Part shown: in pieces, positions 5,379 through 23,877 of the stretch
Layout of the letters: each line of letters starts with the position of its first letter
How positions within the stretch are numbered: position 1 is the first letter of the stretch
Source of the DNA: Armatimonadota bacterium
GTDB lineage: Bacteria > Armatimonadota > Chthonomonadetes > Chthonomonadales > Chthonomonadaceae
NCBI GenBank assembly: GCA_028871815.1
Contig: JAGWMJ010000003.1
Span: 248,001 to 312,000 of the forward strand
Reading direction: 5' to 3'
DNA: 64,000 bases
Made by a program: the position numbers and the translations under genes
Notes under the pieces: generated by a model
Seen by the model: the letters and a program-made list of their open reading frames with translations, nothing else
What the model was told of the DNA's origin: nothing
The model's database searches: none

Positions 5379-5404
5379 GGTGGCCTCCATGCTTCTGCGC
5401 GGTC

Positions 5405-6181: not shown

Positions 6182-6276
6182 GAAGATACCTCGGTCCGGC
6201 CAGCCGGGCGTTGTCTTGCCCGCTCGCCCGCAGATTCGCGGCAGCGGGCTGCGGTTCCTGCCGTGGGATCGAAGCG

Positions 6277-6648: not shown

Positions 6649-6660
6649 CGCCGGACGCCG

Positions 6661-8337
6661 TTACCGCCGGGCATCCAGACCACGCCAGCTGTGGGTCCAT
6701 CCGCCGGGCGCTGTGCTCTCCACCATGAAGCGGTCGTCCTCCAGGCGCGATGTCAGCGGCGCGCCATTTTCGTCCACCGTATACCGGTCACCCAGAATGC
6801 CGCTGGCGATCAGGGCGGGAAGGGAGCTCGGAAGGCTGTTATATGCAAGACGGTACGCGTACACCGCCCGTCCGATCGCAAGGCGTACAAAGTGCGCCTC
6901 GTTTTCACCGCGATGTTCGCGAACGGCCTCCGGCGGCAGCCTCAGCCACCGTATCTCCTCCACCTGCAGCGAACCGCTCGCGCTGCCCAATGCCGTAAAT
7001 GCGACCGTGTGGTCGCCGGGCGCCAGTTCCATCGTGCCCAGGAGTAGATCGACCTCGCCCTCCTCCTCGGAGTTAAGGTTAAGTTCCATCACCGGTGACG
7101 GATGTGCGCCGGTGATAACTGCCTCCCAGCGGCCTCCCGACGGCGCCGTGAAGGCTGTGAGGCGCACCGCGCAGCGGCCTCCCTGGGCAACATGAAACGG
7201 CAGTTCCAGCCTCTCACCAGGCTGTACCGGCTGCCAGCGTAACGACGGGCGTCCGCCAAAGAAGCCGGCCGTCTCCACGGTCGGCCCTTCTTCACCGCTA
7301 GCGACAGCCCCGCTCCACGATCGCACCAGGTGGTGGCTCTCCCAGGGGACCCTGCGTTCGGCCCAGGACGGCACTCCGCCAAAGCTGCGCGCCGGGCCGG
7401 TCTGGTACCAGAATGCCACGCTGGAGTAGAAATCGGGCCGCTCGATGTACCACGCTTCTTCGGGATCCTCCCGGTTCCCCTTGTGCTCGATCGTCACCTT
7501 CAGAGACTTTGTGAAGTGGACCGGATCCAGAACATGCCATCGGTAACAGACGCCGCTGTCGCCTGCAGACCAACCCTGCCAACGCGGTTGGCCAAACCAG
7601 GCGCCCGTGCGCGGCCGGAAGCCCCAGGCATCGTTGAAGTAGTCTTCCGTACCGGTGCCCTGGAGGCTCGGCACCTCCTCGCCATCAATATAGAAGAAGT
7701 CATCTCCCTCGCCAAACCAGCCATCCTGGGCCAGAGTCACCGAGAGCACCGTCCCCACGTATTGCCCGGCTCCCTCGATATCGGCCAGCAGGTAGTCGCG
7801 CCCCATAACGGCAGGATACTCCTGACGATAACGCGCATGGAAGCGCGGCGTGCCGGGCGGCAGCTCCGGTAGTTCCACCCAATCCACCTGCCAGTAAAGG
7901 CCCGACGACCGATCCGGATTATCGTTGGAGATCACGATTCTTGCCGATTTCTCGAACGGCATCCGCCAGTAGCAGGTGAGGCTGCCGCTTGGCGACACCT
8001 GGACCGGCACGCTCTCCACCGAAGCGGGCGTACCCTGCCCCACGGCGAAGAAGTCGGCAAGCGGCGCCTCCACACTCGGCTCCGCGGCTCCATCCCAATA
8101 GATGCGGAGCGTTATCGCATTCAGTTCGTTCATGCCGCCGGAGTGGCTCGTCATCCATATATGGGTGATCATGCCCGGCCCATTGAGAATGGGAAATTCG
8201 AAAACCTCGCCCGGCGCGAGGCGCGTCATGTCGAAATTGCCGTCGTTCCAATTCGGCTGTTCGTTGCTGGAGATACGCCGGTTGCGGCCCGATGAGGGCG
8301 CGGCAAGCTGGCCGAGAAGATCGTTAAAAAGGGTCAT
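6661..8337 (-). CDS. GH172/DUF2961-type glycoside hydrolase
   Basis: About 558 residues of a DUF2961 protein, now classed with glycoside hydrolase family 172 (difructose-anhydride and arabinofuran-acting enzymes). Landmarks include the N-terminal SSNEQPNWNDGNFDM region, GPGMITHIWMTS, the central GEGDDFFYIDGE strand, and the LQGTGTEDYFNDAWGF segment that carries the conserved acidic residue. The C-terminal 150 residues form a separate beta-sandwich followed by a short unrelated tail. No signal peptide is seen with ATG 8337, so it may be cytoplasmic; the longer frame to 8406 is less likely and has no obvious signal either. The exact sugar substrate cannot be read from sequence. Confidence 0.88.
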   Translation of the reverse strand: MTLFNDLLGQLAAPSSGRNRRISSNEQPNWNDGNFDMTRLAPGEVFEFPILNGPGMITHIWMTSHSGGMNELNAITLRIYWDGAAEPSVEAPLADFFAVGQGTPASVESVPVQVSPSGSLTCYWRMPFEKSARIVISNDNPDRSSGLYWQVDWVELPELPPGTPRFHARYRQEYPAVMGRDYLLADIEGAGQYVGTVLSVTLAQDGWFGEGDDFFYIDGEEVPSLQGTGTEDYFNDAWGFRPRTGAWFGQPRWQGWSAGDSGVCYRWHVLDPVHFTKSLKVTIEHKGNREDPEEAWYIERPDFYSSVAFWYQTGPARSFGGVPSWAERRVPWESHHLVRSWSGAVASGEEGPTVETAGFFGGRPSLRWQPVQPGERLELPFHVAQGGRCAVRLTAFTAPSGGRWEAVITGAHPSPVMELNLNSEEEGEVDLLLGTMELAPGDHTVAFTALGSASGSLQVEEIRWLRLPPEAVREHRGENEAHFVRLAIGRAVYAYRLAYNSLPSSLPALIASGILGDRYTVDENGAPLTSRLEDDRFMVESTAPGGWTHSWRGLDARR

Positions 8338-8525
8338 GGTGGGTCGCCGCGCCGAAAGTAAAACGCCGAGAGAAGTGCATGACAATTCGGCGCCGCCGGC
8401 GGCCATCCCTGCGCGCGGCGAGTGGGCGGTGGGTGAGGTCCACGCTCCGACGACGCCTCAATAATCTACAGCCTCGGAGGTTGCCCGCCCGACGCGCCGG
8501 CCTAGTCAGCTATTAACCGTGAATC

Positions 8526-8569
8526 AAAACATTCCCGGCGCACCAGACTTCTCGGATGCGCCGGGAATG
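8526..8569 (-). terminator. Rho-independent terminator
   Basis: A perfect 13-bp inverted repeat (CATTCCCGGCGCA / TGCGCCGGGAATG) with a 14-base loop. On the minus strand the stem is followed by TTTTGATT. It lies just after the stop of the secreted protein gene at 8606-9232 and so ends that transcript. Confidence 0.85.
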
Positions 8570-8605
8570 TAACTCCCAACTCAACGGCCTGGCCGGGCGG
8601 CGGGC

Positions 8606-9232
8606 CTAGCGCACAAAGCCTCGCATCGCCCGGACAACGGCGATCTGGACGGCACGCTCCTCGTGAGGGGTCTTCGGTCCGCCGCTTACGGCGGTAACCA
8701 GCGGTGTGAAGAGCAGATCGGCGCCAGCCTTGACGGCGTTGAACTTTTCGTCGCTCCGCCCGGTAACGCCCTTGCGCACGTACGCAAAGCGCCCGGTGGA
8801 AGCGTTGGCGATCACAATATTGATAATCGCCGTGGAGACCGTTCGCGGACCGAGATCGACCCACATACTGCGAGAGTGAAAGTTAAAGGCAGGCGCCACA
8901 ACATACCGGGCGCCAACCGCCCGGCCCAGCCTGGTAAGCTCCCTCAATGTCGCAGGATGCGCCGAGGTCGGCCGCGGCATCCCAAGGCGCCGCCACGCCT
9001 CGGCGGCCCGCGTGCGGGATACGAGCGTGAAGCCGCCACGCTGCATCATCTCATCCACCGAGCGTACCGCGACAACGCGAGAGCCGTGAGCGCCGCTGTT
9101 GCGACTGAAAACGATGGGATATACAACAGCCGTACCCCGATTTGGCTGCGCGCCGGCGACCGACAGGATAATGAAAGTCATCGCTGCCGCGAAGGCGCCG
9201 ACGTAGACCATGTGCCTGGTTGTTCTGTTCAT
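8606..9232 (-). CDS. Secreted protein of unknown function
   Basis: About 208 residues. ATG 9232 is chosen because GGGGAG lies 6 bases upstream and a signal peptide follows (hydrophobic stretch YVGAFAAAMTFIILSVAGA). The mature protein contains VVYPIVFS, a GARYVVAPAF strand and an IINIVIANASTGRFAYVRK strand, a pattern like periplasmic or lipoprotein-type domains that assemble from conserved 'DxxLxGxxxxR' strands (similar in style to TolB-N/CsgG-type domains). That comparison is an inference and no catalytic motif is visible. It is monocistronic with a strong terminator at 8526-8569. Confidence 0.75.
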   Translation of the reverse strand: MNRTTRHMVYVGAFAAAMTFIILSVAGAQPNRGTAVVYPIVFSRNSGAHGSRVVAVRSVDEMMQRGGFTLVSRTRAAEAWRRLGMPRPTSAHPATLRELTRLGRAVGARYVVAPAFNFHSRSMWVDLGPRTVSTAIINIVIANASTGRFAYVRKGVTGRSDEKFNAVKAGADLLFTPLVTAVSGGPKTPHEERAVQIAVVRAMRGFVR

Positions 9233-9539
9233 ATCGCTCCCCATTTCTGCCCGCGCTCGTAACCGAACCGCGCCGCCACGCTTTGTGCCGGCGCCTGTCA
9301 CAAGCGCCTCGGCATACTGTTTTCATCGGACAACACCCGTGTATTGACGCTCGGTGGTTTCCGTTGGTTCCTGCCCACGCACGGCAGGTCCGGTTGAGAC
9401 CTACCAGCGATGGCCGCGTTTAAACACGCATCATTGGGATTTGTTCGCACGGTACATTGGCACAGGAATCGATGGCGGCTATGGGTAATTGCACCGTGTT
9501 GTATCCGTGGGCTCGAGGTGCTATCGAACCAGGAGTTCT
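9233..9539. other. Intergenic region
   Basis: About 300 bases between the divergent secreted-protein gene and a small membrane protein gene. It should hold both promoters. No convincing coding frame, repeat or hairpin with a T-run was seen. An AGGAG ribosome binding site for the next gene lies at the right edge. Confidence 0.5.
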
Positions 9540-9695
9540 ATGATGTTTTTCGCGAGACTCGGACGCGTCCTTGTAATCCGGCTGATTATCTTCGCGGTGG
9601 TGGGTTTAGTAATCCTCGTCGTAAGAGAGTGCAGTCACCAGCCGGCGGGCTATTCAAATCAGTCTTATCAGACTACCGGCGCCGGCGGCCCGTAG
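9540..9695 (+). CDS. Small single-pass membrane protein
   Basis: A 51-residue protein with one strong transmembrane helix (VLVIRLIIFAVVGLVILVV) followed by a short polar Gly/Ser/Gln tail that ends GAGGP. The start ATG 9540 is supported by AGGAG 5-9 bases upstream; a second ATG follows immediately. Function is unknown; such proteins are often envelope stress or regulatory membrane peptides. A strong hairpin follows at 9711-9737. Confidence 0.6.
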   Translation: MMFFARLGRVLVIRLIIFAVVGLVILVVRECSHQPAGYSNQSYQTTGAGGP

Positions 9696-9710
9696 TCACG
9701 AAGAGGCAGC

Positions 9711-9737
9711 TAAGCCCTCCAGGGAACGGAGGGCTTA
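9711..9737. terminator. Hairpin after small membrane protein gene (possible terminator)
   Basis: A perfect 10-bp inverted repeat TAAGCCCTCC / GGAGGGCTTA with a 7-base loop, 15 bases after the small membrane protein stop codon. No T-run follows on either strand, so termination may depend on other factors. Confidence 0.45.
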
Positions 9738-9898
9738 AATGCGTCGGATTGGTGGACCACGCCCGGTGGTGATGAGCACGATGTCACCACCATCGCCCTT
9801 TAGCTCGCCCGTGGTTTGCTCGATTCCGGCCGATCTGGAGCGAGCGGCGTTGGCCGGACGATTTCCACCGGTGGCGCAGTAGGTAAGATGGTTGCGCC

Positions 9899-10465
9899 AT
9901 GAAGTTCTCCGCGCCCATCTTCTTGAAGGCCGTGGTGGCCGCGTTTCCTCGGGATAGGCGGCCATCGGCTACCGAAGCCGCGAACCTGCTTTTGCCGTTC
10001 GTGGATCAGAACTTTCGCCAACACTCCATTAAGATGGATGTCTGCAACAACACGATCCGTATCCCAAGGCGCGTCCACTTCATCGGACTTAGTGAGGCAG
10101 AACTGGGACAAGAGCTTGCGCTGCTGCCGACAGTGCAATGCCTCCGCACACGAAGTACTGACGGATACGAACGGCAGGCCGCCTTGCAGCATATCCTGAC
10201 CCTGAACGAACCCTGATCGATCCCTTTCGTGGTGCTTCTTGCGGGAGATTATGTCGTTGAGATCATCGACGACATCATGGCCTCGCTGCCGCTGTTAGAC
10301 GCTGAGGCATACGTAGAATTCGTCCGGGAGAATCGAGGCGTGATGCGCCTGCTGCGGAGAAAGGCGACCAGTTATTGGGATTGCTACTACCGCACCGCCC
10401 ATCCCAATCGACACACCTATCCGGGCCTCGCCTTCCTGGATCAACTCGCAGTCTGGGCGAGTTAG
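9899..10465 (+). pseudogene. Conserved hypothetical gene interrupted by an in-frame TGA
   Basis: Codons 1-105 (from ATG 9899) end at TGA 10214-10216. The same frame then reopens at once and continues to TAG 10463-10465, giving a 188-codon frame. The protein reads naturally across the stop (..ILTLNEP-stop-SIPFVVLLAGDYVVEI..), and a tryptophan at that position would be expected from the look of the sequence, so a TGG-to-TGA change is likely. A GTG at 10229 could restart the second part as a 78-residue protein. The family was not recognised; the second half has YWDCYYR and HTYPGLAFLDQL segments. Functionality is doubtful. Confidence 0.6.
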
Positions 10466-10668
10466 ACCCGAAACCGGGGCGGCCGGAGGACGGCGAGGGC
10501 ACAGCGCGGCCATCCGGGCCTCGCTGTGGATTGGAGTGATCGCGTTTTTTATCTGCTACCACAATCAACACTCTGGTTGCGATTCTCGAACTTCCCGTGA
10601 TCAAGGCCCCTGGATGCTCCGGCTGTACCTCGAAGGATGACCCCTCCTGCATCGTCTTACACAAACCG

Positions 10669-10694
10669 AAAATCCCGCTCGAAAGCGGGATTTT
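10669..10694 (-). terminator. Terminator of tRNA-Lys (bidirectional)
   Basis: A hairpin AAAATCCCGCT-CGAA-AGCGGGATTTT, a perfect inverted repeat with a tetraloop and T-run on either strand. On the minus strand it lies 13 bases after the tRNA-Lys gene and ends its transcript; it may also end the plus-strand transcript of the interrupted gene. Confidence 0.85.
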
Positions 10695-10706
10695 GAACCT
10701 AACACC

Positions 10707-10782
10707 TGGTGGGTCGTCAGGGACTCGAACCCTGGGCCCGCTGATTAAGAGTCAGCTGCTCTGCCAGCTGAGCTAACGACCC
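10707..10782 (-). tRNA. tRNA-Lys (anticodon CUU)
   Basis: Folds as a complete cloverleaf on the minus strand: acceptor GGGTCGT/ACGACCC, D-arm GCTC..GAGC, anticodon stem GCTGA/TCAGC with loop CTCTTAA (anticodon CTT), and T-arm CAGGG-TTCGAGT-CCCTG. Discriminator A is followed by an encoded CCA. Confidence 0.97.
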
Positions 10783-10855
10783 GGGCAAGCTCATAACACG
10801 TGGAGCGGCCCGACGGTGAGTATACCTCAGGCGCGAAGCGTGCAAACATCGAGCG

Positions 10856-12280
10856 TCAAGGCGCTGCGCCAGGCGCGGCTGGCGCGCGCTCACCGCCCGG
10901 CCAGGCATCGGCGCCTTCGGCGGCCAGCAGCTGCGCCAACGCGGTATCCCGATCGTAATGAGCCGTCACATCGTTGGTCTGTGCCTGCGTAAGCGCCGAT
11001 TGGGCATCACTGACTTCCAGAAGCGGTGACTGGTTGGGCGTGTTGGTGATGCCGCTCTGAAACCGGACCTGCGCAAGACGGTACTGATCCTGCGCCTCTA
11101 CGAGCGCCGCATGCGTCACGGCAAGCCGATCGGCGGCGTTTCGGAAGGTCAACCATGCCTCCTTCACCTGCAGCGCGATCGTGTCCATTACGGAGGCTTT
11201 GGCCGTTGTGGCGGCCTGAACATCGTCATGAGCCTCGCGGGCCTTGCTGCGCGCCTCCCAGCCATCAAAAACCGGAAGGCTGATCTGAGCCACAATCGCC
11301 TGCTCGGTATCCTGCGGCGCGAGGCCGGCCGATTCCGGCGTGTATTCAAACGTATAACCGAGGCTGACCTGCGGAGCCAGTGAGGCGCGGGCGAGCTGCA
11401 CTCCACGCTTTGCCAGCGCAATCTGCGTATCGGCCTGCGCCGGCTCCGGGCGCAGCCGGTACGCCGTGGATAGAGCCGTGTCAAAGCTCGCCGGCGCTTT
11501 CGGAAGCGCTGCCGCCTGGGCGAGCGTAAGGGGCGTGTTGGTATCCAGTCCCAACGCATTATCCAGCACCGATTCGGCCAGGTTGATGCCGTTTTGCGCG
11601 GCAAGATCGGCCTGTTGGGCGTTTGCGACATCGGTCTGCGCGCGCAGCACATCGAACTGCGTTCCAACACCGGCTCCGCGGAACTTCTGGGCGGTTGCCA
11701 GTCGCGTCTGGGCGTTCTGCCGCGCGGCGAGCGTGACCGCGCGCGACGCCTGTGCCCGCAGCATGGAAAGGTAGGCGCTGCGCACGGAGGCCGTCACCAC
11801 ATTCCTTACGCGGTTGATCTCGAGGCGCGCATCCAGCTGCTGCAGCTGGGAGGATTGCACCCGTGCCCGTACCAGACCCGCCACGTCGATCGGCCAGATC
11901 ACGGCCAGGCCGGCCTGCGTCTGGTCCTGCCGTGACAGGGTTATGGCCAGCGGCGCCGCGCCCGGCAGCGCGAAACGACCGATAACGGGAACACCGAGAT
12001 GCGTTTGCGACGCGTTGAGGCTCAGCTGCGGATAGAATCCCGCCTGTGCGGCTGCAATCCCCGCTCCGGATTTTGCGGCGGCGATCTCGGCCTGTTTCAA
12101 CTGCTTGCTGTTGCTCAGCGCCGTGCTTATCGCCGCGCTCAGCGAGAGTGAGGTCGGCGCGGGATGCGAGCCGGGTTGGGTGGTCGGCGTTTGGCTGACG
12201 GCCGGCGCCGAAAGGAGCACTGCCGCCTGGACTGCGGCTGCGATGCGTACTAGGTGAAGGCTTCGATGGGGTTCGATCAT
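10856..12280 (-). CDS. TolC-like outer membrane efflux protein
   Basis: About 474 residues with a signal peptide (IAAAVQAAVLLSAPAVSQT) and two repeated outer membrane efflux (OEP) units, each made of long helices. It shows the typical ALSNS..LKQAEIAAAKSGAGIAAAQAGFYPQ start, the GVGTQFDVLRAQTD and FDGWEARSKAREA segments, and the ITNTPNQSPLLEVSDAQSAL segment. It forms a trimeric exit duct across the outer membrane for type I secretion or RND pumps. No inner membrane partner gene is adjacent. ATG 12280 is preferred to the frame start at 12343 because the signal peptide begins soon after it. Confidence 0.9.
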   Translation of the reverse strand: MIEPHRSLHLVRIAAAVQAAVLLSAPAVSQTPTTQPGSHPAPTSLSLSAAISTALSNSKQLKQAEIAAAKSGAGIAAAQAGFYPQLSLNASQTHLGVPVIGRFALPGAAPLAITLSRQDQTQAGLAVIWPIDVAGLVRARVQSSQLQQLDARLEINRVRNVVTASVRSAYLSMLRAQASRAVTLAARQNAQTRLATAQKFRGAGVGTQFDVLRAQTDVANAQQADLAAQNGINLAESVLDNALGLDTNTPLTLAQAAALPKAPASFDTALSTAYRLRPEPAQADTQIALAKRGVQLARASLAPQVSLGYTFEYTPESAGLAPQDTEQAIVAQISLPVFDGWEARSKAREAHDDVQAATTAKASVMDTIALQVKEAWLTFRNAADRLAVTHAALVEAQDQYRLAQVRFQSGITNTPNQSPLLEVSDAQSALTQAQTNDVTAHYDRDTALAQLLAAEGADAWPGGERAPAAPGAAP

Positions 12281-13541: not shown

Positions 13542-13662
13542 ACCGCGCCAGCGTCCCACCGGCGTTAGTCGACAGTCCGTCGAAACGCGTACAATCTTAC
13601 GCGCACGCCTGATCGGTATGCCCGCCGACATCAGCAATTGCGCCACCGCAGCTCGCTGGGGA
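13542..13662 (-). mobile_element. IS3-family fragment, inverted (start of transposase orfB)
   Basis: On the minus strand this reads LLMSAGIPIRRARKIVRVST, a diverged copy of the beginning of the transposase (compare FLMSEGVTARRACKIAGPST in the neighbouring copy). It is head-to-head with the copy at 13663, so the short GCAATT..CTGATGTC segments form an inverted repeat at the junction. It is not functional. Confidence 0.75.
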
Positions 13663-14534
13663 GCGCAATTCCTGATGTCTGAAGGTGTTACGGCCAGGCG
13701 AGCCTGTAAGATCGCGGGCCCCTCTACGGCGGCGCCGTATCGCAAGAGTGCGCCGGACAAGGACAGCGACCTACGCGAAAGGCTGTGCCAGGCCCGGCGG
13801 CCGAGCATGGGCTACCGCATGGTGGACGCGCTTGTTCGGTCGGAGTTTGCGCCGCTGAACATCAGGCGGGTTCACCGGATCTGGAGGGAGGAGAAGCTCG
13901 GGCGGATGAGGCGCTATCGCAAGAAGCGCACTGGCGAGAGCGCTCCAATCAAAGCCGACGCTCCGAATCAAGTCTGGTGCATCGACTTCCTGTTCGATAC
14001 CTGCATGAACGCCACGCGGCTCGAGATTCTGGGGGTCAAGGATGAGTACACGAAGGAATGCCTGGCACTGGAGATCCGCTCCCGGTTTCGGTTAAGGACG
14101 TTAAGCGCGTCGTTGAAAAGCGCTTCGAGGAGTACGGAACGCCACGGTTCCTTCGGTCCGATAACGGCGGCGAGTTTTTGGCCCGCACGCTCGTCGTGTT
14201 CTTGTCGGCTCGCGATACGAAGCCCTATTTCATCAAGCCAGGGTCGCCATGGCAGAACGGCTTTATCGAGAGCTTCAATTCTCGGCTGCGTGCTGAGTGC
14301 CTGGACGTAGAACTGTTTCACAACCTTGCGGACGCCGGGATCAAGCTGGCGGTATATCGCCGGTCGTACAACGAGGAGCGTCCGCATTCTTCGATCGGGT
14401 ATGTGGCCGCGGCCACTTACGGCGCGTGCTGCCGGAATGCCGGTCGGGCTACGCCCTCCCTCCATTCCGGAAGCGAAATGTCTCAACCCACTGCGGATTC
14501 TAGCTAAGGTGTCTTCACCAGTGGGGGCAGACCA
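13663..14534 (+). mobile_element. IS3-family element, 5'-truncated, with broken transposase
   Basis: Contains most of orfB of an IS3-family transposase but not orfA. DDE residues are visible: aspartate in VWCIDFLFD, aspartate in LRSDNGGEF and glutamate in FIESFNSRLRAECLD. The frame is interrupted near 14085-14100, where a single-base shift moves from the 13618-frame to the frame that continues to 14507, so the transposase is inactive. The right terminal repeat ends at 14534 with GGGGGCAGACCA, the complement of TGGTCTGCCCCC at the homologous ends at 21212 and 23878. Confidence 0.8.
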
Positions 14535-14539
14535 CCTCC

Positions 14540-14596
14540 ACCATAGGTGTCGAGAGGATTCTAGTTCACACGTCTTCAAATCCTGGGGGCAGACCA
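14540..14596 (-). mobile_element. IS3-family left-end fragment, inverted
   Basis: Matches the 5' terminal 55-60 bases of the copy at 21212-22439 (complement of TGGTCTGCCC..GGATTTGAAGACG..ACTAGAATCCTCTCGACACC). It lies tail-to-end against the right end of the preceding copy, showing repeated insertion and deletion of the same element. The 216 bases that follow, up to the kwaB stop at 14813, hold no recognisable gene. Confidence 0.75.
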
Positions 14597-14812
14597 CTTC
14601 GGCGCTCTTCAGAGGACTGACCAACGGTTTGCGGGATCACCGAAGGGATTCACAAATTGCCGCACTTGCGCCTGTCGTGGTAACAGGAACTGTCGAGCCC
14701 ACCATTGAGTCACCACCTTGATCTTGAACAAGTCGCAAGGCACGCTAATTGCACTCGCATGTTCGCTCGCCCGAAATCAGAGTAAGCTTAGTCATGTGAG
14801 TGTTCTATTGAG

Positions 14813-15718
14813 CTAAGGGGCGACCTTCTTTCGCGACGCCGCTCTGTATGTATCCGCTTGCTGATCGGCAAGCGGATCAGGATAGAGCCTACGATCGAGG
14901 AGTTCGAGGAACTTTATTTCGTGCTTCGGCCTTGGAGACAGTTTGCCACCGACTTCAATAAGCTCAACCTCAGTCGCCTCACACGCCTTGCGAAACCGAT
15001 CTGCCGAGAGACCGGATATATCGTTTCGCGCTCGGATCGCTGCGAAAAGGCGCCTACCGCGAGCGGACACCTTAACGAACTCGATAGCGAAGTCTAGGCT
15101 CAAAAAAGGGACTGCTGCTGCGACAGCATGCACATGACCGGGCGCTACCTTTATAAGCTCGGCTTCGAGATCCGCGATCCATTCGAACTGCGTGGGCCGA
15201 AGTATTGCCACCGTATCGGGAAAGATAATAAGGTCGAAGTCCGGGTCGAGCTTAAAGACGTTGTCCGTAATGAGATCAAGTTGCCCATTAAGGATATGCA
15301 TCAGCTTCTTTCCGATGGTTCGCTTGAAGTAGCTCGCCCTCCGGACACCGACGCACTCGTTCTTGTGCTTATCACGGAGTTTTGCGAAATAGAAGTCAAG
15401 CTTGGAAGGGTAACTCAAAGCATCAGCGGATACGGGAATATTTTCCGCAGTAATCAAGCTCTTCAGCTTCGCGGCCACTGGGTCATCTACTGAACACTTC
15501 ACGGGTGCGATAGATCCGTATTGTTCAGCACAGTCGAAAGTCTCCCACGTACTTGGTTCGCCAAGCTTGTCCAGGGTGTCCTTGAGCATCTGCGTAAGTT
15601 CGTTGGTCACGGCCGGTGTCACCGGTATGTGATAATGTCGGTCCTCGCCTGTCAACAACGCCACTGCGAACTCAGCATACTCGATTGAAGAGGTGTCTAT
15701 TAGCACAGGTCTACTCAC
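14813..15718 (-). CDS. kwaB: Kiwa anti-phage protein KwaB (DUF4868-like)
   Basis: A 301-residue protein with the layout of KwaB/DUF4868 proteins: an N-terminal alpha/beta part (LDFYFAKLRDKHKNECVGVRR), then an acidic strand-rich part with FKLDPDFDLIIFPDTVAILRPTQFEWI, followed by a helical C-terminus. In known Kiwa systems KwaB pairs with the membrane protein KwaA and acts against phage DNA after KwaA senses infection at the membrane. The gene starts with GTG 15718, overlapping the kwaA stop by 4 bases (GTGA), so the two are translationally coupled. Family assignment is by motif recognition only, and no nuclease motif was identified. The surrounding DNA is AT-richer than the chromosome. Confidence 0.72.
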   Translation of the reverse strand: MSRPVLIDTSSIEYAEFAVALLTGEDRHYHIPVTPAVTNELTQMLKDTLDKLGEPSTWETFDCAEQYGSIAPVKCSVDDPVAAKLKSLITAENIPVSADALSYPSKLDFYFAKLRDKHKNECVGVRRASYFKRTIGKKLMHILNGQLDLITDNVFKLDPDFDLIIFPDTVAILRPTQFEWIADLEAELIKVAPGHVHAVAAAVPFLSLDFAIEFVKVSARGRRLFAAIRARNDISGLSADRFRKACEATEVELIEVGGKLSPRPKHEIKFLELLDRRLYPDPLADQQADTYRAASRKKVAP

Positions 15719-16356
15719 TTTTCGTATTCAATGAAGACGGTGTCGCTTAGCCGTCTAGCGGTTATCCTCTGGCGGGTACGCAAGGAGCGGCGCTTAGTCA
15801 GAAGAACGAGTGTATTTCTACCGCTCGCTGCATTAGAGGTGCCTTCGGTTTCGATCGTATAAACTCTGTAATCCGCTAAGGCGAAGACCAGATTCATGTA
15901 GTGGAGATTCATATGGGTGAATAGGAAAATGACGAATACCAGCGCGGCTAGCTCCGCCATTACATCTCGGACACTCGCGTAATTGTTCTGATAGAGAGGC
16001 ATCACCATTGCGAAGAGGTAGGCTATCAAGTGGTCCCGATGGTCGGTTGCTGTTCCTACGACGAGCTCCTTGAAGTCCTGAGATTTTCCGGCGATATAGA
16101 CCCGAAGTGCTAGAACTCCAGCAGGGAGTACGACAAGGATTAAACACAACGAAACATAGAGGGGATCGGCAATTAGTGGCTTCCCATCTATAGCAGGAAC
16201 GCCTCTGATGGCAAGGAACACGAATAAGGGAGCCATGCTGCCGAGCACCATGAAGAAGCGGACAAACATTAATCCCTCTTTGGGCCGGATGGTTGTAGCA
16301 CCAGGGCTCATAATAGTCTGTCCGTTTCGGGCTATGCTTCGTGTCAAGTTATTCAC
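15715..16356 (-). CDS. kwaA: Kiwa membrane protein KwaA-like
   Basis: Up to 213 residues with four transmembrane segments: FMVLGSMAPLFVFLAI, YVSLCLILVVLPAGVLAL, the helix around LIAYLFAMVMPLY, and ELAALVFVIFLFTHMNL. A cytoplasmic, basic C-terminal tail follows with RRSLRTRQRITARRLSD and VFIEYEK. Size, topology and the coupled KwaB-like gene match the Kiwa pair, in which KwaA is the membrane sensor component. ATG codons at 16356, 16311 and 16269 are possible starts; none has a strong ribosome site. The gene lies 214 bases after the DndE-HerA-like gene, on the same strand, so the two systems may be co-transcribed or simply neighbours. Confidence 0.65.
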   Translation of the reverse strand: MNNLTRSIARNGQTIMSPGATTIRPKEGLMFVRFFMVLGSMAPLFVFLAIRGVPAIDGKPLIADPLYVSLCLILVVLPAGVLALRVYIAGKSQDFKELVVGTATDHRDHLIAYLFAMVMPLYQNNYASVRDVMAELAALVFVIFLFTHMNLHYMNLVFALADYRVYTIETEGTSNAASGRNTLVLLTKRRSLRTRQRITARRLSDTVFIEYEK

Positions 16357-16570: not shown

Positions 16571-18100
16571 TCACGCGAATGCGCTGTAGAACGCCTCGGC
16601 AGTGAACTTAGTGAACTCCTCTGTCTTCTCGGGGCTGCGCGTAATCACTTGCCATGGCTCCAATCGAGCAATCTCCGTCTGGAGGTCCCTCGCCGTTTTG
16701 GGGGTGCAACCGAGAATCTCCTGGACTGACGCGCTCGCTACCCCGTCACATTGAAAAATAAACGTGAATTCCAGGAGCTCCTGAAAGTTGAAGAACTTCT
16801 GCTGATAGTCGTTAGGTGACTGGCTGGCGAAGAAAACGACGACTCCCTTTGAACGCCCTTCTCTTATGATTCGTTGCAGGAATATGTTGTTTTGCGCTAG
16901 GTAGTTGTGCGCTTCATCAATTACCAGGACAGTTCGAATCATGCGTCGGCCGTCCGTGATCGGGCTGTCGGGCAGGGCCGCCATCTCCTTGTAGAGCCGC
17001 TCGATAACCAGGTAGGCGACGAGTTCTTTCAACACTGGCATGGCGTGGACATCGACAAGAAACGAGCGGTTTGACAGCCGATCCATCGGCGGTACATCGC
17101 TGCCGTGGCGCCAGAACAGGTCGAACTCGGAAAGATCGCGTAGCACTTCTATAAGGCTATCGTCTTTCTTTCCTTCTTCATCGTAAGATGCGGCCGCAGC
17201 TTCGAGAATGTCAGGAAAGTCTGGGTACGGGGCCGTTGAGTTTGTGCGCTTGGCGTATCCGGCTCTGATCGCTTCCGTAAGAGCACCTTTTTGGACTACT
17301 CCTAGCTTGCTGTTAATGGACGCGAAACTCTCGGCCTTTTCACGGGCTGACACGCTGATCGATTGTTCGTCATATGCAGGGAGCACGAACGGATTGATTG
17401 GTAGTCCTTGCCCACCCTGCAAGAGGCGAAACGGCTGAACTCGGGCAACCTCTAAGAACCGAGCGTTATCGACAACGTCGCCTTTGTAATCGAAGTAAAT
17501 CAAGTTGGTCTGGTAATTCGACTGAATTCGGATATCTGACAGAATCTTTAACAAGAACTGCGTCTTGCCGACTCCGGGTTTGCCCATAATCGCAAGGTGC
17601 GAATTAGCGTGTTTCGTTGTGTTATTGAGCTCGATTACTAGCTCACCTTGCTGGAGAAGCCGCCGGCCAACGAAGATATCGAGTCCACGGCCAGAGTACT
17701 CGCGGATGCCTGCGAACTCGACTTCGTCTACTAAGCGCCTCAGCAGGGCGTCGCCATTTCCCCCAAGCTCTTGGAACATCTGAGCGAGAATTGCGGCGCC
17801 GCTATCAATGTGGCTCTTGAGAAGCGACCGATTGGAGAAGAACTCCTCTTCGGTTAGGTCTGGCGTCTGATGTGTAAACGAAACCAGCGTGCGCAAGAAG
17901 ACCTCATCTTCCCCGATAAAGGTCGGCCGCTTCATTTCGCCGCCACCAAAGCTCGTACTACGGGAAACTCGAGCGCCATCTTTCAGCAGGGACAGTGCAA
18001 AGGCAATTCGGGCAAGCGTCACCTTCTCCAGCTTTGTTTCGAGTCGCAAAGCACTGAGTACCTCATCGGCGTCGCTCGACGTGTATAGCCGGTCAGCCAT
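16571..18100 (-). CDS. DndE-domain / HerA-type ATPase fusion
   Basis: 509 residues. Residues 1-115 match the DndE domain of DNA phosphorothioation systems (LARIAFALSLL, FIGEDEVFLRTL, then LLKSHIDSGAAIL), where DndE binds nicked DNA. From about 150 to 509 there is a HerA/DUF87-type ATPase with Walker A GKPGVGKT (173-180), Walker B LVIDEAH (392-398) and the RSKGVVVFFASQSPND sensor region. HerA-type ATPases form ring hexamers on DNA. Fusion of the two suggests one protein that recognises DNA state and moves along or unwinds it. It overlaps the upstream dndD gene by 8 bases, so the two are coupled. No dndA, dndB or dndC is present in the window. Confidence 0.75.
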   Translation of the reverse strand: MADRLYTSSDADEVLSALRLETKLEKVTLARIAFALSLLKDGARVSRSTSFGGGEMKRPTFIGEDEVFLRTLVSFTHQTPDLTEEEFFSNRSLLKSHIDSGAAILAQMFQELGGNGDALLRRLVDEVEFAGIREYSGRGLDIFVGRRLLQQGELVIELNNTTKHANSHLAIMGKPGVGKTQFLLKILSDIRIQSNYQTNLIYFDYKGDVVDNARFLEVARVQPFRLLQGGQGLPINPFVLPAYDEQSISVSAREKAESFASINSKLGVVQKGALTEAIRAGYAKRTNSTAPYPDFPDILEAAAASYDEEGKKDDSLIEVLRDLSEFDLFWRHGSDVPPMDRLSNRSFLVDVHAMPVLKELVAYLVIERLYKEMAALPDSPITDGRRMIRTVLVIDEAHNYLAQNNIFLQRIIREGRSKGVVVFFASQSPNDYQQKFFNFQELLEFTFIFQCDGVASASVQEILGCTPKTARDLQTEIARLEPWQVITRSPEKTEEFTKFTAEAFYSAFA

Positions 18101-20093
18101 GATTCTCTTCCCAGAAATACCCTTGCTTGATCGTGGACAATTCTTGGCGTTGATCGAATTCCAACCGTGCCGCGCCGGTCAGTCTCGGCCTTAGCGCCTT
18201 GTAATAGGCTTGGTCTACTTCCGTGTCCGTGGAGAGGATAATCACTTGCTCACCAGCATTGGGAAAGTAGCTATTGACAATATTGTCGCGGTGTGAGCTG
18301 TCCAGGCGCGATAACGGGGTGTCGATGATAATCGGTAGTTTCAGCTCGCTTGTCTGCGCAAGGCCCCATAGCAGCGCGATTGCGAATACTTCCTTTTCGC
18401 CTGCCGACAACGCTGACTTTCGTATCTCGTGCCCATTGCGGTCCGTAATGTGAACCTCATATGTCTCATCATCGATCGTGATGTCCTTTATCAGGCCACT
18501 GCGGCTGGACAGCCTCCGATACATCTCTAAGGTCTTCTCCTGGAGAACATTCACCTTGTTCTTGCGAAGGCGAACCACAAATTGGTTAAGGACGCTAGCA
18601 ATGGCGTCGCACTCGGCTAAGAAGTCTGCTTTCTCCTTTGACACGTTGTGCCTCTCGTACAGCTTGGCGATCTCAACATCGAGCTCGCTAATTCGCTTAT
18701 CGAGCGTAAAGATGTCTTCCTCTTGGAGACGTAGTTGCTCAGTCTTGCGTCCGATTTGCGTCGAGCAGCTTTCCATGGAGGACTGAAGGTCGTCGTACAA
18801 GTTCTCTTCAGTTCGAGACAGGGAGCCGCCTTCGACAACGCCCGCAAGTTGCCGCACCTCGGCTTGGAGACTTGCCACCTCCTCCAGCAGCGGCTTCAGC
18901 AGGAATACGTCGCTGCGTTCTAAAGTATCGATCTTATTAAGAACCCTGGCCGCATCACGCTCCGACAGACCAAGCACTTTCGGTGCGTCCGCCCGAGGGT
19001 CTCCCTCCTGAAGAAGGCACAAGATTCTGCGCTCCAGTTCCGCCATACGTGCTGGGGAAAGCGTTTCCGTATAGATGGGTTCTGGTTCCTCAACAACGCG
19101 AACGATTCTCTTGGCCAGCGAGGCGGCATTCTCTTTGATAGCTTCGCCGCTGGCGGATTCGCGCTCCGCTTCTATTTGCCGACGCAGTCCGTCGAAAGCC
19201 TTGCCGGCGATGCTAAACGGCAGTGCCTTTTCGCATAAGTCGCGAACCTCGGTCTCGACTTGCGCAAGCCGATTAGCGGCGATTGCCCGTCTCTTCTCCT
19301 GTTCACGAATAGTCTCTCGGGATTCCGGCGCGATGTTGAATGTAGCTTCGAACCTCCTCTTGTCCTCTCTGAGTTGGCTCTTGAATGCGTCCAACTCACT
19401 ACGAATATCGTCCACTTCTTGGTGCTTCCGCGCCAACTTGCTCTGCTCTCGTTTGGCTTCCGTCTGCTTGAATTCTAAATCCTCGTCGGAAATCTCGACG
19501 AAGCCCTTCCGTTCTTCCTGCTTTATGTAGCCAATATCGCTTGCCAGACGGTTGATGTACTGAATTCCTAATGCGGCCTCAAGTGACGATTTCAAGCGAA
19601 CTTCAGAGTGATCGTCAGCTGCTATTTCCTGGATCTTCTCGCCGTCGAAGAAGAAGAACTGGGTAATGCCTGGTGGGATTGCGGCGCGGATGAAGTCCTG
19701 CCAAATCTGTTGGTTTTGGCTGGAAACCCGTTTGCCATCGCGTACTACTACTAGGCGCTCCACGAGGTCGCGCGGCTTCGGATCGGTCACCGTACCTGCG
19801 GTCCATGACCGCTTTACAATCAACTCCGAGTGGTCGTCCATCTCCATAGAAAGCTCGAAAGCGATATCGGCATTGCCCTTCGCCTTTTCCCTGCGGTTGA
19901 TGTTCCGGAAGATGTCGTCAACCTTGCCGCCATACAGGCAGTAGCTTACAGCTTCCATGATGGAAGTCTTACCGGCTCCGTTCATGCCACCAATGAGGAA
20001 GATACTATGGCCATCATCACCTGATGGAAATTCTATATCCGTCTGGAGCTGAAACGACTTGTAGTTTTCGATGGTTAGCTTACGGAACTTCAT
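18093..20093 (-). CDS. DndD-like SMC/RecF-type ATPase
   Basis: 666 residues. It starts MKFRKLTIENYKSF and has Walker A GMNGAGKT (36-43), the FFFDGEKIQEIA segment typical of DndD, a central coiled coil of about 350 residues, the ABC signature LSAGEKEVFA (near 560) and Walker B IIIDTPLSRLD (near 590), followed by the LSTDTEV switch. DndD is the ATPase of the DNA sulfur-modification (Dnd) complex and is thought to open or inspect DNA. Here it sits in an operon of coupled genes (overlaps of 4 and 8 bases with its neighbours) with a DndE-HerA fusion. The start of a second, truncated dndD is at 22440-22521. Confidence 0.8.
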   Translation of the reverse strand: MKFRKLTIENYKSFQLQTDIEFPSGDDGHSIFLIGGMNGAGKTSIMEAVSYCLYGGKVDDIFRNINRREKAKGNADIAFELSMEMDDHSELIVKRSWTAGTVTDPKPRDLVERLVVVRDGKRVSSQNQQIWQDFIRAAIPPGITQFFFFDGEKIQEIAADDHSEVRLKSSLEAALGIQYINRLASDIGYIKQEERKGFVEISDEDLEFKQTEAKREQSKLARKHQEVDDIRSELDAFKSQLREDKRRFEATFNIAPESRETIREQEKRRAIAANRLAQVETEVRDLCEKALPFSIAGKAFDGLRRQIEAERESASGEAIKENAASLAKRIVRVVEEPEPIYTETLSPARMAELERRILCLLQEGDPRADAPKVLGLSERDAARVLNKIDTLERSDVFLLKPLLEEVASLQAEVRQLAGVVEGGSLSRTEENLYDDLQSSMESCSTQIGRKTEQLRLQEEDIFTLDKRISELDVEIAKLYERHNVSKEKADFLAECDAIASVLNQFVVRLRKNKVNVLQEKTLEMYRRLSSRSGLIKDITIDDETYEVHITDRNGHEIRKSALSAGEKEVFAIALLWGLAQTSELKLPIIIDTPLSRLDSSHRDNIVNSYFPNAGEQVIILSTDTEVDQAYYKALRPRLTGAARLEFDQRQELSTIKQGYFWEENHG

Positions 20094-20779
20094 GTCTGTT
20101 CGCTAAGCTCCCAGACGCCCTTTGGTGAGCCCTTCTTTAGGATCCCGTCTTGTACCATCCGCCATCTTTCCCAATGGGTATTGTGTCGCCAAACGATGCC
20201 CGCGGTATCTCGTAACTCTAGGTCGCGCGGCAAGAGATGGCCTTCGAGCTGCTTGGCCATTTCGTCGATCACGACTTGGCTGCGCGCACTTCCTCCGTGC
20301 GCACGCAGAGCAATGATAATCTGTTGCCGCAAGATGGCAAAGTCCGTCGTTGGCTCTTTCGATCGATGACGGGTCGGTGTACTTGCGGATTCTGGCTCCC
20401 GGGACCGTGATCGTTTGTCGGGAAGGCCGGATGTTGGGCGGCCAGGCATCGACTCGGTGCCCTCATTCGTTCTATAACGTAAGTCGTTTAGGGTCGCCTG
20501 CAAACCCGTCGCTAGCTCCGCCAACGCTCTAACCCTGTCTTCGTGGAGTTCGATTGAGGCAATTAGCCGAGTCTTTTCTGAGCGTAACGCATCGGGCACC
20601 GATACCTCAGACTTCTGCAACCGCTCGATCGTCTTCGCAATCTCTCTTAACTGCGCTTCTTGTTCCTTAGGAGTTGCCTCGTTGCGACCGATGACGAGTT
20701 GATCAATTACCTGACGGATTAAGTCAATCAAGCGCCCAGGGTCTTGTGCAAAGTCCTTGATAGTTGCGTCTGACGTCAA
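20090..20779 (-). CDS. Coiled-coil protein with C-terminal winged-helix domain
   Basis: 229 residues. The first ~95 residues are helical and charged, with ..QLREIAKTIERLQKSEVSVPDALRSEKTRL.. (predicted coiled coil). A low-complexity Arg/Ser/Pro linker (about 110-140) is followed by a winged-helix domain (about 145-229) resembling the N-terminal domain of Mrr-type restriction proteins (LRAHGGSARSQVVIDEMAKQL .. WRHNTHWERWRMVQDGILKKG .. GVWELSE). It may be a DNA-binding adaptor for the DndD/DndE-HerA complex. The stop overlaps the dndD start by 4 bases and its start overlaps the small upstream gene by 4 bases. A paralogue with the same N-terminus but a different C-terminal domain is at 22570-23382. 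Confidence 0.75.
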   Translation of the reverse strand: MTSDATIKDFAQDPGRLIDLIRQVIDQLVIGRNEATPKEQEAQLREIAKTIERLQKSEVSVPDALRSEKTRLIASIELHEDRVRALAELATGLQATLNDLRYRTNEGTESMPGRPTSGLPDKRSRSREPESASTPTRHRSKEPTTDFAILRQQIIIALRAHGGSARSQVVIDEMAKQLEGHLLPRDLELRDTAGIVWRHNTHWERWRMVQDGILKKGSPKGVWELSEQT

Positions 20780-20970
20780 TGGGATGGCTCTACTTCGCGA
20801 GACGGATCGCTACGAAGAATGTCTCGCAATGCATCGTAGACACCGGTCCGCCGATCTTTGAATTCGTATTCGCGAACGGTGTCGAGCAGCTTCAACACTT
20901 TCTCCTGGCTCACGCCGTGCTGCTCGCAAAGTTCTTTCAAGAGCTGCCTATCATCATAGGAGAGATTCAT
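20776..20970 (-). CDS. Small conserved protein of the Dnd-like operon
   Basis: 64 residues, mostly helical: MNLSYDD, KELCEQHGVSQEKVLKLLDTV, then REYEFKDRRTGVYDALRDIL. It is nearly identical to the protein at 23379-23573. I associate this kind of short protein with DNA-modification (Dnd-type) gene clusters, but no activity is known. It is coupled to the following gene by a 4-base overlap. The ATG start is preceded by a tail of a gene remnant that ends in an ATGA overlap. Confidence 0.7.
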   Translation of the reverse strand: MNLSYDDRQLLKELCEQHGVSQEKVLKLLDTVREYEFKDRRTGVYDALRDILRSDPSREVEPSH

Positions 20971-21211
20971 TCTGCTGTTGGCGCCTCCACGGTGAGTTCC
21001 TCGACGCGAAGTTTGGCTTCCGCTGGGCGTCTCGGGGACTCTTACTGCTTCGTCAGACTTTCCCCGACCAAGGCTCCAATCCCTTCTTGGCTTATGGCCG
21101 GAAGTATTGGAACGACAAACCTATCTATGTCTGTCGCGTAGGTTTCCGCTTGAGCGCGCACACTTGCGTACATCTGTGTTTGGAATTGGCCGATGACGGC
21201 TGGAACACGAG
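20971..21211. repeat. Cassette leader repeat A with 3' end of a lost upstream gene
   Basis: This 241-base block is almost identical to 23574-23815 (a handful of substitutions). On the minus strand it holds an open frame ending in ..VVPILPAISQEGIGALVGESLTKQ and stop, about 75 bases before the small-gene start. A second frame with C-terminus ..EELTVEAPTAE ends in an ATGA overlap with the small gene. It appears to be the 3' end of a gene removed by the IS element at 21212. Which frame is coding could not be decided: substitutions between the copies do not favour one clearly. Confidence 0.55.
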
Positions 21212-21242
21212 TAATCTGTCCCCACTGGTGAAGACACCTTAG

Positions 21243-22090
21243 CTAGAATCCGCAGCGAGTTGAGAGACTTCGCTTCCGAAATGGAGGGACGCTGTAGCCC
21301 GATCGGCGCTTCCAAACCGCGCGGGCCGTAGCAGGAGCTACGTGCCCGATCGAAGAGTGCGGTCGCTCCTCGTTGTACCATCGGCGATATACTGCCAGCT
21401 CGATCTCGGCGTCCTCAAGGTTGTGAAACAGTTCGACGTCCAGGCACTCAGCACGCAGCTGGGAATTGAAGCTCTCGATAAAGCCGTTCTGCCACGGCGA
21501 CCCCGGCTTGATGAAATAGGGCTTAGTATTGCGTTCCGACAGGAACACGGCGCGCGTGCGCGCCAGGAACTCACCGCGGTTATCGGACCGAAGGAACCGG
21601 GGCATTCCGTACTCCTTGAAGCACTTTTCAAGGACGCACTAAACGTCGTTTGACCGAACCTGGGAGCGGATCTCCAGTGCCAGGCAATCCTTCGTGTACT
21701 CATCCTTGACCCCTAGGATCATGAGCTGCGTGCCGTTCATGCAGGTATCGAACAGGAAGTGGATGCACCAGACATGATTGGGAGCTTCGGCTTTGATTGG
21801 AACGCTCTCGCCGGTGTGCTTCTTACGATAGCGCGTCATCCGCCCGAGCTTCTCCTCCTTCCAGATCTGGTGAACCCGCTTGATGTTCAGCGGTGCAAAC
21901 TCCGACCGCACAAGCGCGTGCGCCATGCGGCAGCCTATGTTCGGCCGCTAGGTCTTGCGCAGCCTTTCACGTAGGTCGATGTCCTGGTCCGGAGCACTCT
22001 TGCGATACGGCGCCGCCGTAGAGGCGCCTGCGATCTTACAGGCTCGCCTCGCCGTAACACCTTCAGACATCAGGAATTGCGCGCCCGCAG
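21243..22090 (-). pseudogene. IS3-family transposase OrfB, degenerate
   Basis: The catalytic integrase-like part is split over two frames. The first frame includes KIAG..STAAPYRKSAPD, then a stop, then MAHALVRSEFAPLNIKRVHQIWKEEKLGRM up to ..EIRSQVRSNDV and stop; the second frame continues PRFLRSDNRGEFLA, FIESFNSQLRAECLD and YNEERPHSSIGHV. The aspartate and glutamate of the DDE triad are present, but the first aspartate position reads VWCIHFLFD instead of VWCIDFLFD, a further sign of decay. Confidence 0.8.
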
Positions 22091-22372
22091 CTCGCTGGGG
22101 ATCGTCCACCCGTTTTCTCGAAAGAGCTTCCTTACCGCGGAGATCTCAAACTCAGGCTCGGCAACCAGGAGCCCGAGCGCTTCGTTCTCCCTCTCGAGCT
22201 CCCGCAGCCGCTTCACATCATCGTTCTCCATGCCGGCGTATTTACGCCGCCAGCTGTGGACCGTCGCATCGCTCACGCCGTGCGTTGCAAGGATCGTCTT
22301 CATCGGCGCGCCGGCCTTCAGCTCGCCGAGGACCTTTACAATCCGGTCCTCGGTGAATATCGATTTCTTCAA
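22070..22372 (-). CDS. IS3-family transposase OrfA
   Basis: 100 residues. It has the helix-turn-helix of IS3 OrfA proteins (EDRIVKVLGELKAGAPMKTI, then HGVSDATVHSWRRKYAG) followed by a leucine-zipper region (LRELERENEALGLLVAEPEF), which mediates oligomerisation. The start is TTG 22372, preceded by GGGAGG. In intact elements a programmed frameshift joins OrfA to OrfB. Its partner orfB is broken here. Confidence 0.85.
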   Translation of the reverse strand: MKKSIFTEDRIVKVLGELKAGAPMKTILATHGVSDATVHSWRRKYAGMENDDVKRLRELERENEALGLLVAEPEFEISAVRKLFRENGWTIPSELRARNS

Positions 22373-22439
22373 AATGATCCTCCCTCATAGGTGTCGAGAG
22401 GATTCTAGTTTGCGCGTCTTCAAATCCTTGGGCAGACCA

Positions 22440-22521
22440 CATCTTCCCCTATTGGAAAGGCGATCTCAGTTGGAAACTGGAAGGATTTGTAGTTTTCAAT
22501 TGTCAGCTTTCGCAGTTTCAT
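22440..22521 (-). pseudogene. Truncated second dndD (5' end only)
   Basis: From ATG 22521 the minus strand reads MKLRKLTIENYKSFQFPTEI and is cut off at 22440 by the IS end. It matches the start of the intact dndD at 20093 (MKFRKLTIENYKSFQLQTDI). It shows that a complete second Dnd-like operon once existed here. It lies 48 bases after the upstream gene, whereas in the intact operon the genes overlap by 4 bases. Confidence 0.85.
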
Positions 22522-22569
22522 TCAAAGCCCTCGCCAACCGTCGTTAGACAGACTGCGAAATAGTTTGCG

Positions 22570-23382
22570 TTACGACAGGAGATATTGGGAAACGTCGACT
22601 GCGTTACCTCTTCCCGGCTGCCCCAATAAGAGCCGTGGATTGTCCTCGTAAATGCGGACGTGCCAATAGTCTTTCTTACCGCCGACCGTCTTATCCATGG
22701 ATTGGACCAGGGTCCTTAGAACGGCAAGCGGAATAACTACAATCCTGTTCGCGGAGCCACAACCAAATGCTGCATATCCTGCTGCAGCCTTCTGAAGAAA
22801 GTCGAAGTGTTTTTTCTGAAATCCATACCAGTACTGCAGGTTTGGATAGGTTTTGGAAACACCGCATGTAAAGCGCTTTTCATCGCCGGCGCTTCGGTAT
22901 TGAGCTAAGGTAATCTTGGTAAGCGATACGTCGAAGTGTTCCGCAACTGCCTCCATGACCTGGGGATGAAAATTGGCCACATCCGTAGTTTTGGAAACAA
23001 TGGGCCAACCACTCTGCGTCTCCCCGGTGGCACCGGACGTCCTCTTAGGAGTCTAAATCGTTGGACCGATGCGCCGACCGCCGATGTCTTCAAGTATGCT
23101 CTTTAGGCCACCCGACAAAGACGCCAAGGACTTACTTGCTTCTTCATTGACTGCAAGAGCCGCAGCCAAGCGAGTCTTTTCCGCTCTCAACGCCTCAGGC
23201 ACCGTCACGCCTGCCTTCTCCAGTCGCTCAACAGCCTTTGCGATTTCCCGGAGCTGTGCTTGGCACTGTACCACTTCGCCGGTTGGTGAATTGGTACGTA
23301 ACTCATCGCACACTTGGCGGCAAAGCTCGACGAGGAGATCTGGGTCTTTGACGTACTGTTCGATGTCGATTGCATCGGTCAT
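22570..23382 (-). pseudogene. Coiled-coil protein with a different C-terminal domain, split by an in-frame TAG
   Basis: The frame from 23382 encodes 109 residues (N-terminus like that of the 20090-20779 protein: ..QLREIAKAVERLEKAGVTVPEALRAEKTRL..) up to TAG 23053-23055, then continues in the same frame to 22570. The second part contains KTYPNLQYWYGFQKKHFDFL, GYAAFGCGSANRIVVIPL and DYWHVRIYEDNPRLLLGQ, a compact domain I recall from restriction-related proteins but cannot name. The shared N-terminus with the paralogue and a different C-terminal domain suggest interchangeable specificity modules. The second part could restart at GTG 22980. Confidence 0.65.
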
Positions 23383-23573
23383 ACCGGCTGCTCCGCTTGT
23401 TCGGTCGGCTTACTCCTCAAGATTTCCCGTAACTCATCATATACACCGGTCCGCCGATCTTTGAATTCGTATTCCCGAACGGTGTCGAGCAGCTTCAACA
23501 CTTTCTCCTGGCTCACGCTGTGTTGCTCGCAAAGTTCTTTGAAGAGCTGGCTATCATCATAGGAGAGATTCAA
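23379..23573 (-). CDS. Small conserved protein of the second Dnd-like cassette
   Basis: 64 residues, nearly identical to the 20776-20970 protein (MNLSYDDSQLFKELCEQHSVSQEKVLKLLDTV, then the EYEFKDRRTG block), with a TTG start at 23573 (ATG in the other copy). It overlaps the following gene by 4 bases. Conservation between the copies is highest here and in the N-terminus of the next protein. Confidence 0.65.
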   Translation of the reverse strand: MNLSYDDSQLFKELCEQHSVSQEKVLKLLDTVREYEFKDRRTGVYDELREILRSKPTEQAEQPV

Positions 23574-23877
23574 TCTGCTGTTGCCGCCTCCACGATGAGT
23601 TCCTCGACGCGACGTTTGGCTTCCGCTGGGCGTCTCGGGGACTCTTACTGCTTCGTCAGACTTTCCCCGACCAAGGCTCCAATCCCTTCTTGGCTTATGG
23701 CCGGAAGTATTGGAACGACAAACCTATCTATGTCTGTCGGGTAGGTTTCCGCTTGAGCGCGCACACTTGCGTACATCTGTGTTTGGAATTGGCCGATGAC
23801 GGCTGGAATACGAGTGCCTTGCACGCAGCGTCACTTCCAGGTCGCATTCTGAGAATGTTGACTCGGTTGCTAGGGAT
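23574..23877. repeat. Cassette leader repeat B with remnant of a lost upstream gene
   Basis: Positions 23574-23815 repeat 20971-21211 nearly base for base; the next 62 bases, up to the IS end at 23878, are unique. On the minus strand a short open frame of about 59 codons ends ..ISQEGIGALVGESLTKQ. This copy shows that the homologous upstream gene was also truncated, here by another IS3 remnant. Confidence 0.55.

Follow-up and report, generated by a model that had tools for sequence, protein, structure and literature searches.

A DndD and DndE-HerA cassette in an Armatimonadota genome as the probable remnant of a hybrid restriction-modification operon

The window analysed here, a stretch of 64,000 nucleotides from an Armatimonadota bacterium (GCA_028871815.1, contig JAGWMJ010000003.1, positions 248,001 to 312,000), carries a cassette of four minus-strand open reading frames (ORFs) that includes the genes for a DndD-type ATPase and a DndE-HerA fusion. 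An earlier reading made from the sequence alone (hereafter the sequence-only reading) had described a coupled four-gene operon with these two proteins and no dndA, dndB or dndC in view. The ORF coordinates bear out the coupling, with overlaps of 4, 4 and 8 bases between successive genes of the order SP, WH, DndD, DndE-HerA:

20776-20970, minus strand: SP, 64 amino acids, a free-standing homolog of the DndC C-terminal tail, PbeB-like
20090-20779, minus strand: WH, 229 amino acids, a helical N-terminal adaptor with a C-terminal winged helix
18093-20093, minus strand: DndD-type coiled-coil ABC ATPase, 666 amino acids (TIGR03185, 378 bits against a cut-off of 246)
16571-18100, minus strand: DndE fused to a HerA/DndH-type ATPase, 509 amino acids (matches to PF08870, PADLOC DndH and structure 7es4)

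Searches with profile models identified both large proteins as the sequence-only reading had named them, DndD through TIGR03185, DndE through PF08870 and HerA through the C-terminal DndH model. The DndE domain of the fusion occupies residues 4-109 (PF08870, 40 bits against a cut-off of 25; TIGR03184 gives 39.7 bits on this part, below its full-protein cut-off of 71.85), and the HerA part occupies residues 138-505 (118 bits with the DndH C-terminal model), with an intact Walker A (GKPGVGKT) and Walker B (DEAH). Profile matching retrieved the HerA domain structure of DptH/DndH (7es4, E=5e-49) and the solved DndE structures 7x4e and 5wtu, and an AlphaFold model of the fusion (mean predicted local distance difference test score, pLDDT, of 87) has the DndH C-domain 7es4 as its top Foldseek match (E=5e-25). 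A motif check of DndD found Walker A, the LSAGE signature and Walker B; the CxxC hook is absent from it, and a C-x(1-3)-C (CxC) motif is absent both from it and from the DndD of most relatives.

The two small proteins are less familiar. SP aligns with the last 55 positions of DndC models (positions 391-446 of TIGR03183 and 405-459 of NF005316, with PADLOC DndC tails at 29-30 bits) and thus constitutes a stand-alone DndC-tail domain; its homolog at a locus from another genome of the same phylum (L014) matches PbeB over its full length too. The N-terminal half of WH is conserved across 16 homologs, and WH orthologs match Mrr_N weakly. A fold search with the AlphaFold model of WH (pLDDT 84) gave winged helices as the best matches in PDB, none of them significant. 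Domain-model searches of SP, WH, DndD and DndE-HerA detected no nuclease domain.

The source genome (3.68 Mb, 22 contigs, about 98% complete) contains no full-length dndC, the only matches being the two SP copies, which align with the DndC tail, and a genome-wide search with PF14072 found no dndB, so the absence of these genes extends beyond the window. dndA could not be distinguished from general cysteine desulfurases in these searches. A DndFGH-like set is located elsewhere in the genome, on contig C1 (C1:345000-364999), rather than in the cassette operon; among the models of NCBIfam, MAD6 and MAD7 give the highest scores to the DndF- and DndG-like proteins of this set. An N6_Mtase pseudogene with one TAA (C1:347234-347680) lies just upstream of that set.

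The HsdS remnant just ahead of the cassette, a second copy of the operon's first part and the KwaAB genes on the downstream side had all gone unnoticed in the sequence-only reading. The DNA ahead of the cassette holds this second copy, itself cut short (22441-23803), together with remnants of an HsdS gene and of an insertion sequence (IS):

20988-21197, minus strand: HsdS C-terminal remnant ahead of the intact cassette, one internal TAA, matching positions 381-451 of an intact HsdS from a related locus (L022)
21215-22440, minus strand: IS3-type element with decayed, transposase-like ORFs between the HsdS remnant and the cut second dndD, 88% identical to an inverted copy at 13646-14597
22441-22521, minus strand: start of a second dndD (sequence MKLRKLTIENYKSFQF...), cut at the IS boundary after about 27 codons
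22570-23382, minus strand: second WH gene, with an in-frame TAG at codon 110 (read-through translation)
23379-23573, minus strand: second SP gene, TTG start, open, with a match to the TIGR03183 tail
23585-23803, minus strand: HsdS C-terminal remnant ahead of the second copy, with the same TAA
23949-24053, minus strand: fragment of that IS3-type element, on the upstream side of the second HsdS remnant, 83% identical over 106 bases to 21284-21387

A search of the window with intact HsdS identified the two remnants as the last 74 or so residues of that protein, each with the TAA, and both align with the C-termini of intact HsdS proteins. Over HsdS remnant plus SP the two copies are 96.6% identical across 381 bases, and the shared TAA suggests either that decay predates the duplication or that gene conversion spread the stop codon. 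The upstream copy is the more decayed, its WH being split by the TAG and its dndD ending at the IS3-type element, which on its other side directly abuts the HsdS remnant of the intact cassette. A 136-residue ORF at 22570-22980 was considered as a separate gene and rejected, as it is the back part of the WH pseudogene. Given the positions of the element and its fragment beside the remnants, an IS adjoins every break, and IS activity may have caused the losses.

What was lost can be gauged from relatives. A scan of 84,980 species genomes gave 138 loci, of which 80 are listed, and most of those 80 carry DndE-HerA at 60-84% identity. Clustering of the neighbouring genes revealed a protein of about 920 residues (M) and another of about 456 residues (S) directly upstream of the cassette, and this pair is present in 36 of 45 informative loci, a set made up of every locus whose sequence reaches 4.8 kb or more upstream of dndD and of any other that shows M itself. 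M is a fusion of an HSDR_N_2 nuclease (81 bits) and an N6_Mtase domain (127 bits), has RM.BsaXI as its nearest solved structure (E=1e-31), and retains the nuclease motif in 30 of 31 sequences and the NPP[FYW] motif in all 31. S is an HsdS-like specificity subunit with a Methylase_S match. The full gene order is M, S, optional cargo, SP, zero to three WH genes, DndD and DndE-HerA, the order of SP, DndD and DndE-HerA being constant throughout the relatives. At many cargo-free loci the S match ends 0-20 bases ahead of SP, and at L026 the genes for S, SP, WH, DndD and DndE-HerA all overlap or abut. The window copy keeps the SP, DndD, DndE-HerA order and coupling, and upstream of it intact M and S are absent, with S tails alone remaining; no M of this family is left anywhere in the genome (best match 22 bits).

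The nine informative loci without a full M and S pair comprise two with an S tail only (L036, L080), two with fragments (L021, L044), one with another restriction-modification pair (L049) and four with neither gene (L061, L074, L076, L082). The recurrence of front-end remnants at the first four was counted in favour of truncation of the window copy. At L049 (4556-7038, plus strand) the SP-WH-DndD-DndE/HerA cassette follows a type II pair other than the BsaXI-like one, namely an N6/N4 methyltransferase with a TdeIII-type endonuclease, and so resembles a module that can be plugged in.

RhuM or DarT-DarG lies between S and SP at many loci, and this junction looks like a cargo site; DarT-DarG in L036, L037, L040 and L073 fills the slot that holds RhuM elsewhere. 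The C-terminal reader of WH comes in two forms, a winged helix and a RAMA domain, the latter seen in L036, L040 and L052. At L040 (5962-8009) and L076 (3824-5750, plus strand) WH genes stand in tandem, as many as three paralogs sharing their N-terminal half. Some loci adjoin other defence genes, for example HamB; like the cargo, these lend contextual support to a defence role of the family. A Klebsiella plasmid (L108) carries relatives of M (41% identical) and S without the cassette, followed by two DUF262 genes.

M and cassette appear to have diverged together. Distances between M proteins correlate with those between DndE-HerA proteins (Spearman rho 0.80, n=30, 0 of 500 permutations as high), a figure from which shared ancestry as a cause has not been removed, and DndD and DndE-HerA distances correlate at 0.96. 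Mapped on a DndE-HerA tree of 55 full-length proteins, the presence and absence of M and S requires five changes among the labelled rows, a pattern consistent with repeated loss. The window aside, this tree spans 12 phylum-level groups and breaks up each of Pseudomonadota, Thermodesulfobacteriota, Bacteroidota and Bacillota, which suggests horizontal transfer of the cassette, although caution is due because many of the records are metagenome bins. Intact forms of the operon are found in about a dozen phyla of bacteria. Searches of plasmids and phages with DndE-HerA yielded distant HerA domains only and a scan of viral contigs yielded only two distant loci; the family is thus not visibly phage-borne.

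We therefore posit, with a probability of roughly 0.72, that the window cassette is what is left, as the SP-WH-DndD-DndE/HerA module, of a hybrid restriction-modification operon after the loss of M and most of S, and that it is probably a non-restricting remnant whose four genes are still open. Having lost M and nearly all of S, this copy encodes neither a matching methyltransferase nor its own nuclease or specificity subunit. In a complete operon, M and S would methylate host sites as a mark, WH proteins would report the modification state through their C-terminal winged helix or RAMA domain, DndD and the DndE domain would scan the DNA, and the HerA ring would drive unmarked foreign DNA to the nuclease domain of M; such an operon would presumably act against phages. 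The end branch of the window DndE-HerA, 0.26 against 0.03-0.13 in the rest of its group, fits relaxed constraint after loss of the partners, or could reflect a poorly sampled lineage, and the window DndE-HerA and DndD both lie somewhat farther from outgroups than their sister sequences do. Synonymous sites are saturated (pS 0.74-0.93, dN 0.10-0.16), which makes dN/dS unusable here.

Several observations weigh against this interpretation. In both DndD and DndE-HerA of the window the catalytic motifs are preserved, and of about 200 conserved columns only 5 are changed in either protein, as could be expected of retained function no less than of slow decay. A further HsdM-type methyltransferase encoded in the genome (C17) could in principle serve the cassette. 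Plasmid L106 of Trichormus variabilis carries a 74% identical M and S with no cassette annotated, and M and S are thus not strictly dependent on it. Conversely, the cassette occurs without M and S at L061, L076, L082 and L014, and so it may also act alone.

The strongest competitor, that SP, WH, DndD and DndE-HerA form a complete and independent defence or DNA-surveillance system requiring no modification partner, draws on this last group. The first three of these loci lack M and S despite upstream sequence being present, and the divergent L014 consists of just SP, DndD and DndE-HerA between unrelated genes; the open reading frames and intact motifs of the window copy would be expected under this explanation as well. 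It is nonetheless improbable in our estimation, as M and S stand directly upstream at four fifths of informative loci and co-diverge with the cassette, the four proteins lack a detectable nuclease, and HsdS remnants precede both window copies. The sequence-only reading had suggested such an independent complex, built from Dnd parts but free of sulfur chemistry. That proposal is partly right and holds for the family, with dndC in only 5 of 45 carrier genomes and never within the cassette.

Immediately downstream of the cassette lie two genes of the Kiwa system:

15715-16356, minus strand: KwaA (PADLOC, 206 bits)
14813-15718, minus strand: KwaB (PADLOC, 193 bits)

Being on the same strand and only 215 bases away, they invite the view that cassette and KwaAB make up one six-gene system. 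This is very unlikely, since KwaA and KwaB are found beside none of the other loci and genes of the cassette overlap one another rather than lying 215 bases apart; KwaAB was accordingly rejected as a conserved part of it. We regard the apparently intact KwaAB as a distinct system that shares an island with the cassette, and the IS elements on either side point to a defence island.

Least probable of all is an ordinary phosphorothioation operon stripped of dndA, dndB and dndC, for while SP is homologous to the DndC tail and distant DndE-HerA fusions do occur with dndC (at L098 also with dndB), SP is free-standing at dozens of unrelated family loci, dndC is absent from 40 of 45 carrier genomes, and the upstream remnant is HsdS and not DndC. 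The idea of a partial operon whose front end fell to an IS thus stands as regards truncation beside the IS3-type element and fails as regards the missing part, which the HsdS tails at 20988-21197 and 23585-23803 mark as a nuclease-methyltransferase with an HsdS-like subunit rather than dndABC.

The dndC survey covered 45 whole genomes that carry the cassette. Four of the five real matches exceed the curated cut-off and the fifth reaches 276 bits with an internal stop; those clearly placed lie away from the cassette, and in most other carriers the search matches the SP tail only. Nor does dndC or dndB accompany every homologous fusion: a full dndC query among the relatives matched only the distant L012, L092, L098 and L101, and dndB was seen at L098 alone. 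There (4768-11476, plus strand) DndC, a DndB-like protein, DndD and DndE-HerA form one operon, likely a true phosphorothioation system with a DndE-HerA fusion.

The hybrid operon shares parts with several known systems. Canonical Dnd systems share DndD and DndE with it, whereas DndC and DndB are not present here, and the DndF, DndG and long DndH of DndFGH are not in the cassette operon. PbeABCD/CxC-DndE systems are similar in that some members of the family have a PbeB-like SP and that PbeC models, too, match the ABC ATPase, and different in that DndE here carries HerA and the window DndD lacks the CxC motif; the helicase-nuclease PbeA did not turn up, no dedicated PbeA model search of the genome having been made. 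Type IIB RM.S enzymes such as RM.BsaXI likewise combine nuclease and N6 methyltransferase in one polypeptide with a separate S subunit, whereas the hybrid operon couples M and S to SP, WH, DndD and DndE-HerA. With respect to MADS, M resembles MAD2 (271 bits) and S resembles MAD5 (122 bits), and the HerA part has a weak likeness to MAD8; none of these scores reaches the MADS equivalog cut-off. DndD, DndE and SP are not known as MADS components. Kiwa is represented by KwaA and KwaB as neighbours of the window cassette, not as a cassette part in relatives.

The DndE-HerA fusion itself has already been reported. Rakesh, Aravind and Krishnan 2024 (PMC10853773) place it beside a DndD-related ABC ATPase in HerA/FtsK clade-3, the same fusion and the same neighbour as found here, and assign it to the phosphorothioation systems, of which it makes up a subset; the paper also counts pairs of DndD and DndE that lack further modification genes and notes cytosine methylases with CxC systems. 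In the passages found there, neither an adenine-type BsaXI-like M nor HsdM/HsdS nor this operon is mentioned with the fusion, nor does a 2025 restriction review mention the hybrid operon. Provisionally, no earlier description of the combination of M, S and the Dnd/HerA proteins was found in the openly accessible literature, as distinct from subscription papers and preprints.

The family may represent a class of restriction-modification system that is widespread and spreads horizontally. A detached DndC tail (SP) and adaptors with interchangeable readers would here connect a BsaXI-like nuclease-methyltransferase and an HsdS-like subunit with DndD and DndE-HerA, so that Dnd machinery is re-used with base methylation and not phosphorothioation; we consider the odds of this broader proposal to be about even. 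In this family DndD and DndE travel without sulfur chemistry, in the company of an adenine-type methyltransferase and a specificity subunit, and what looks like an orphan Dnd operon can turn out to be the truncated end of a system based on methylation. If the proposal is true, DndD-DndE would be a general scanning or translocation core attachable to different DNA marks, an idea made testable by the intact operons of culturable bacteria such as Paracoccus sulfuroxidans, Halalkalibacter oceani and Methylotuvimicrobium buryatense.

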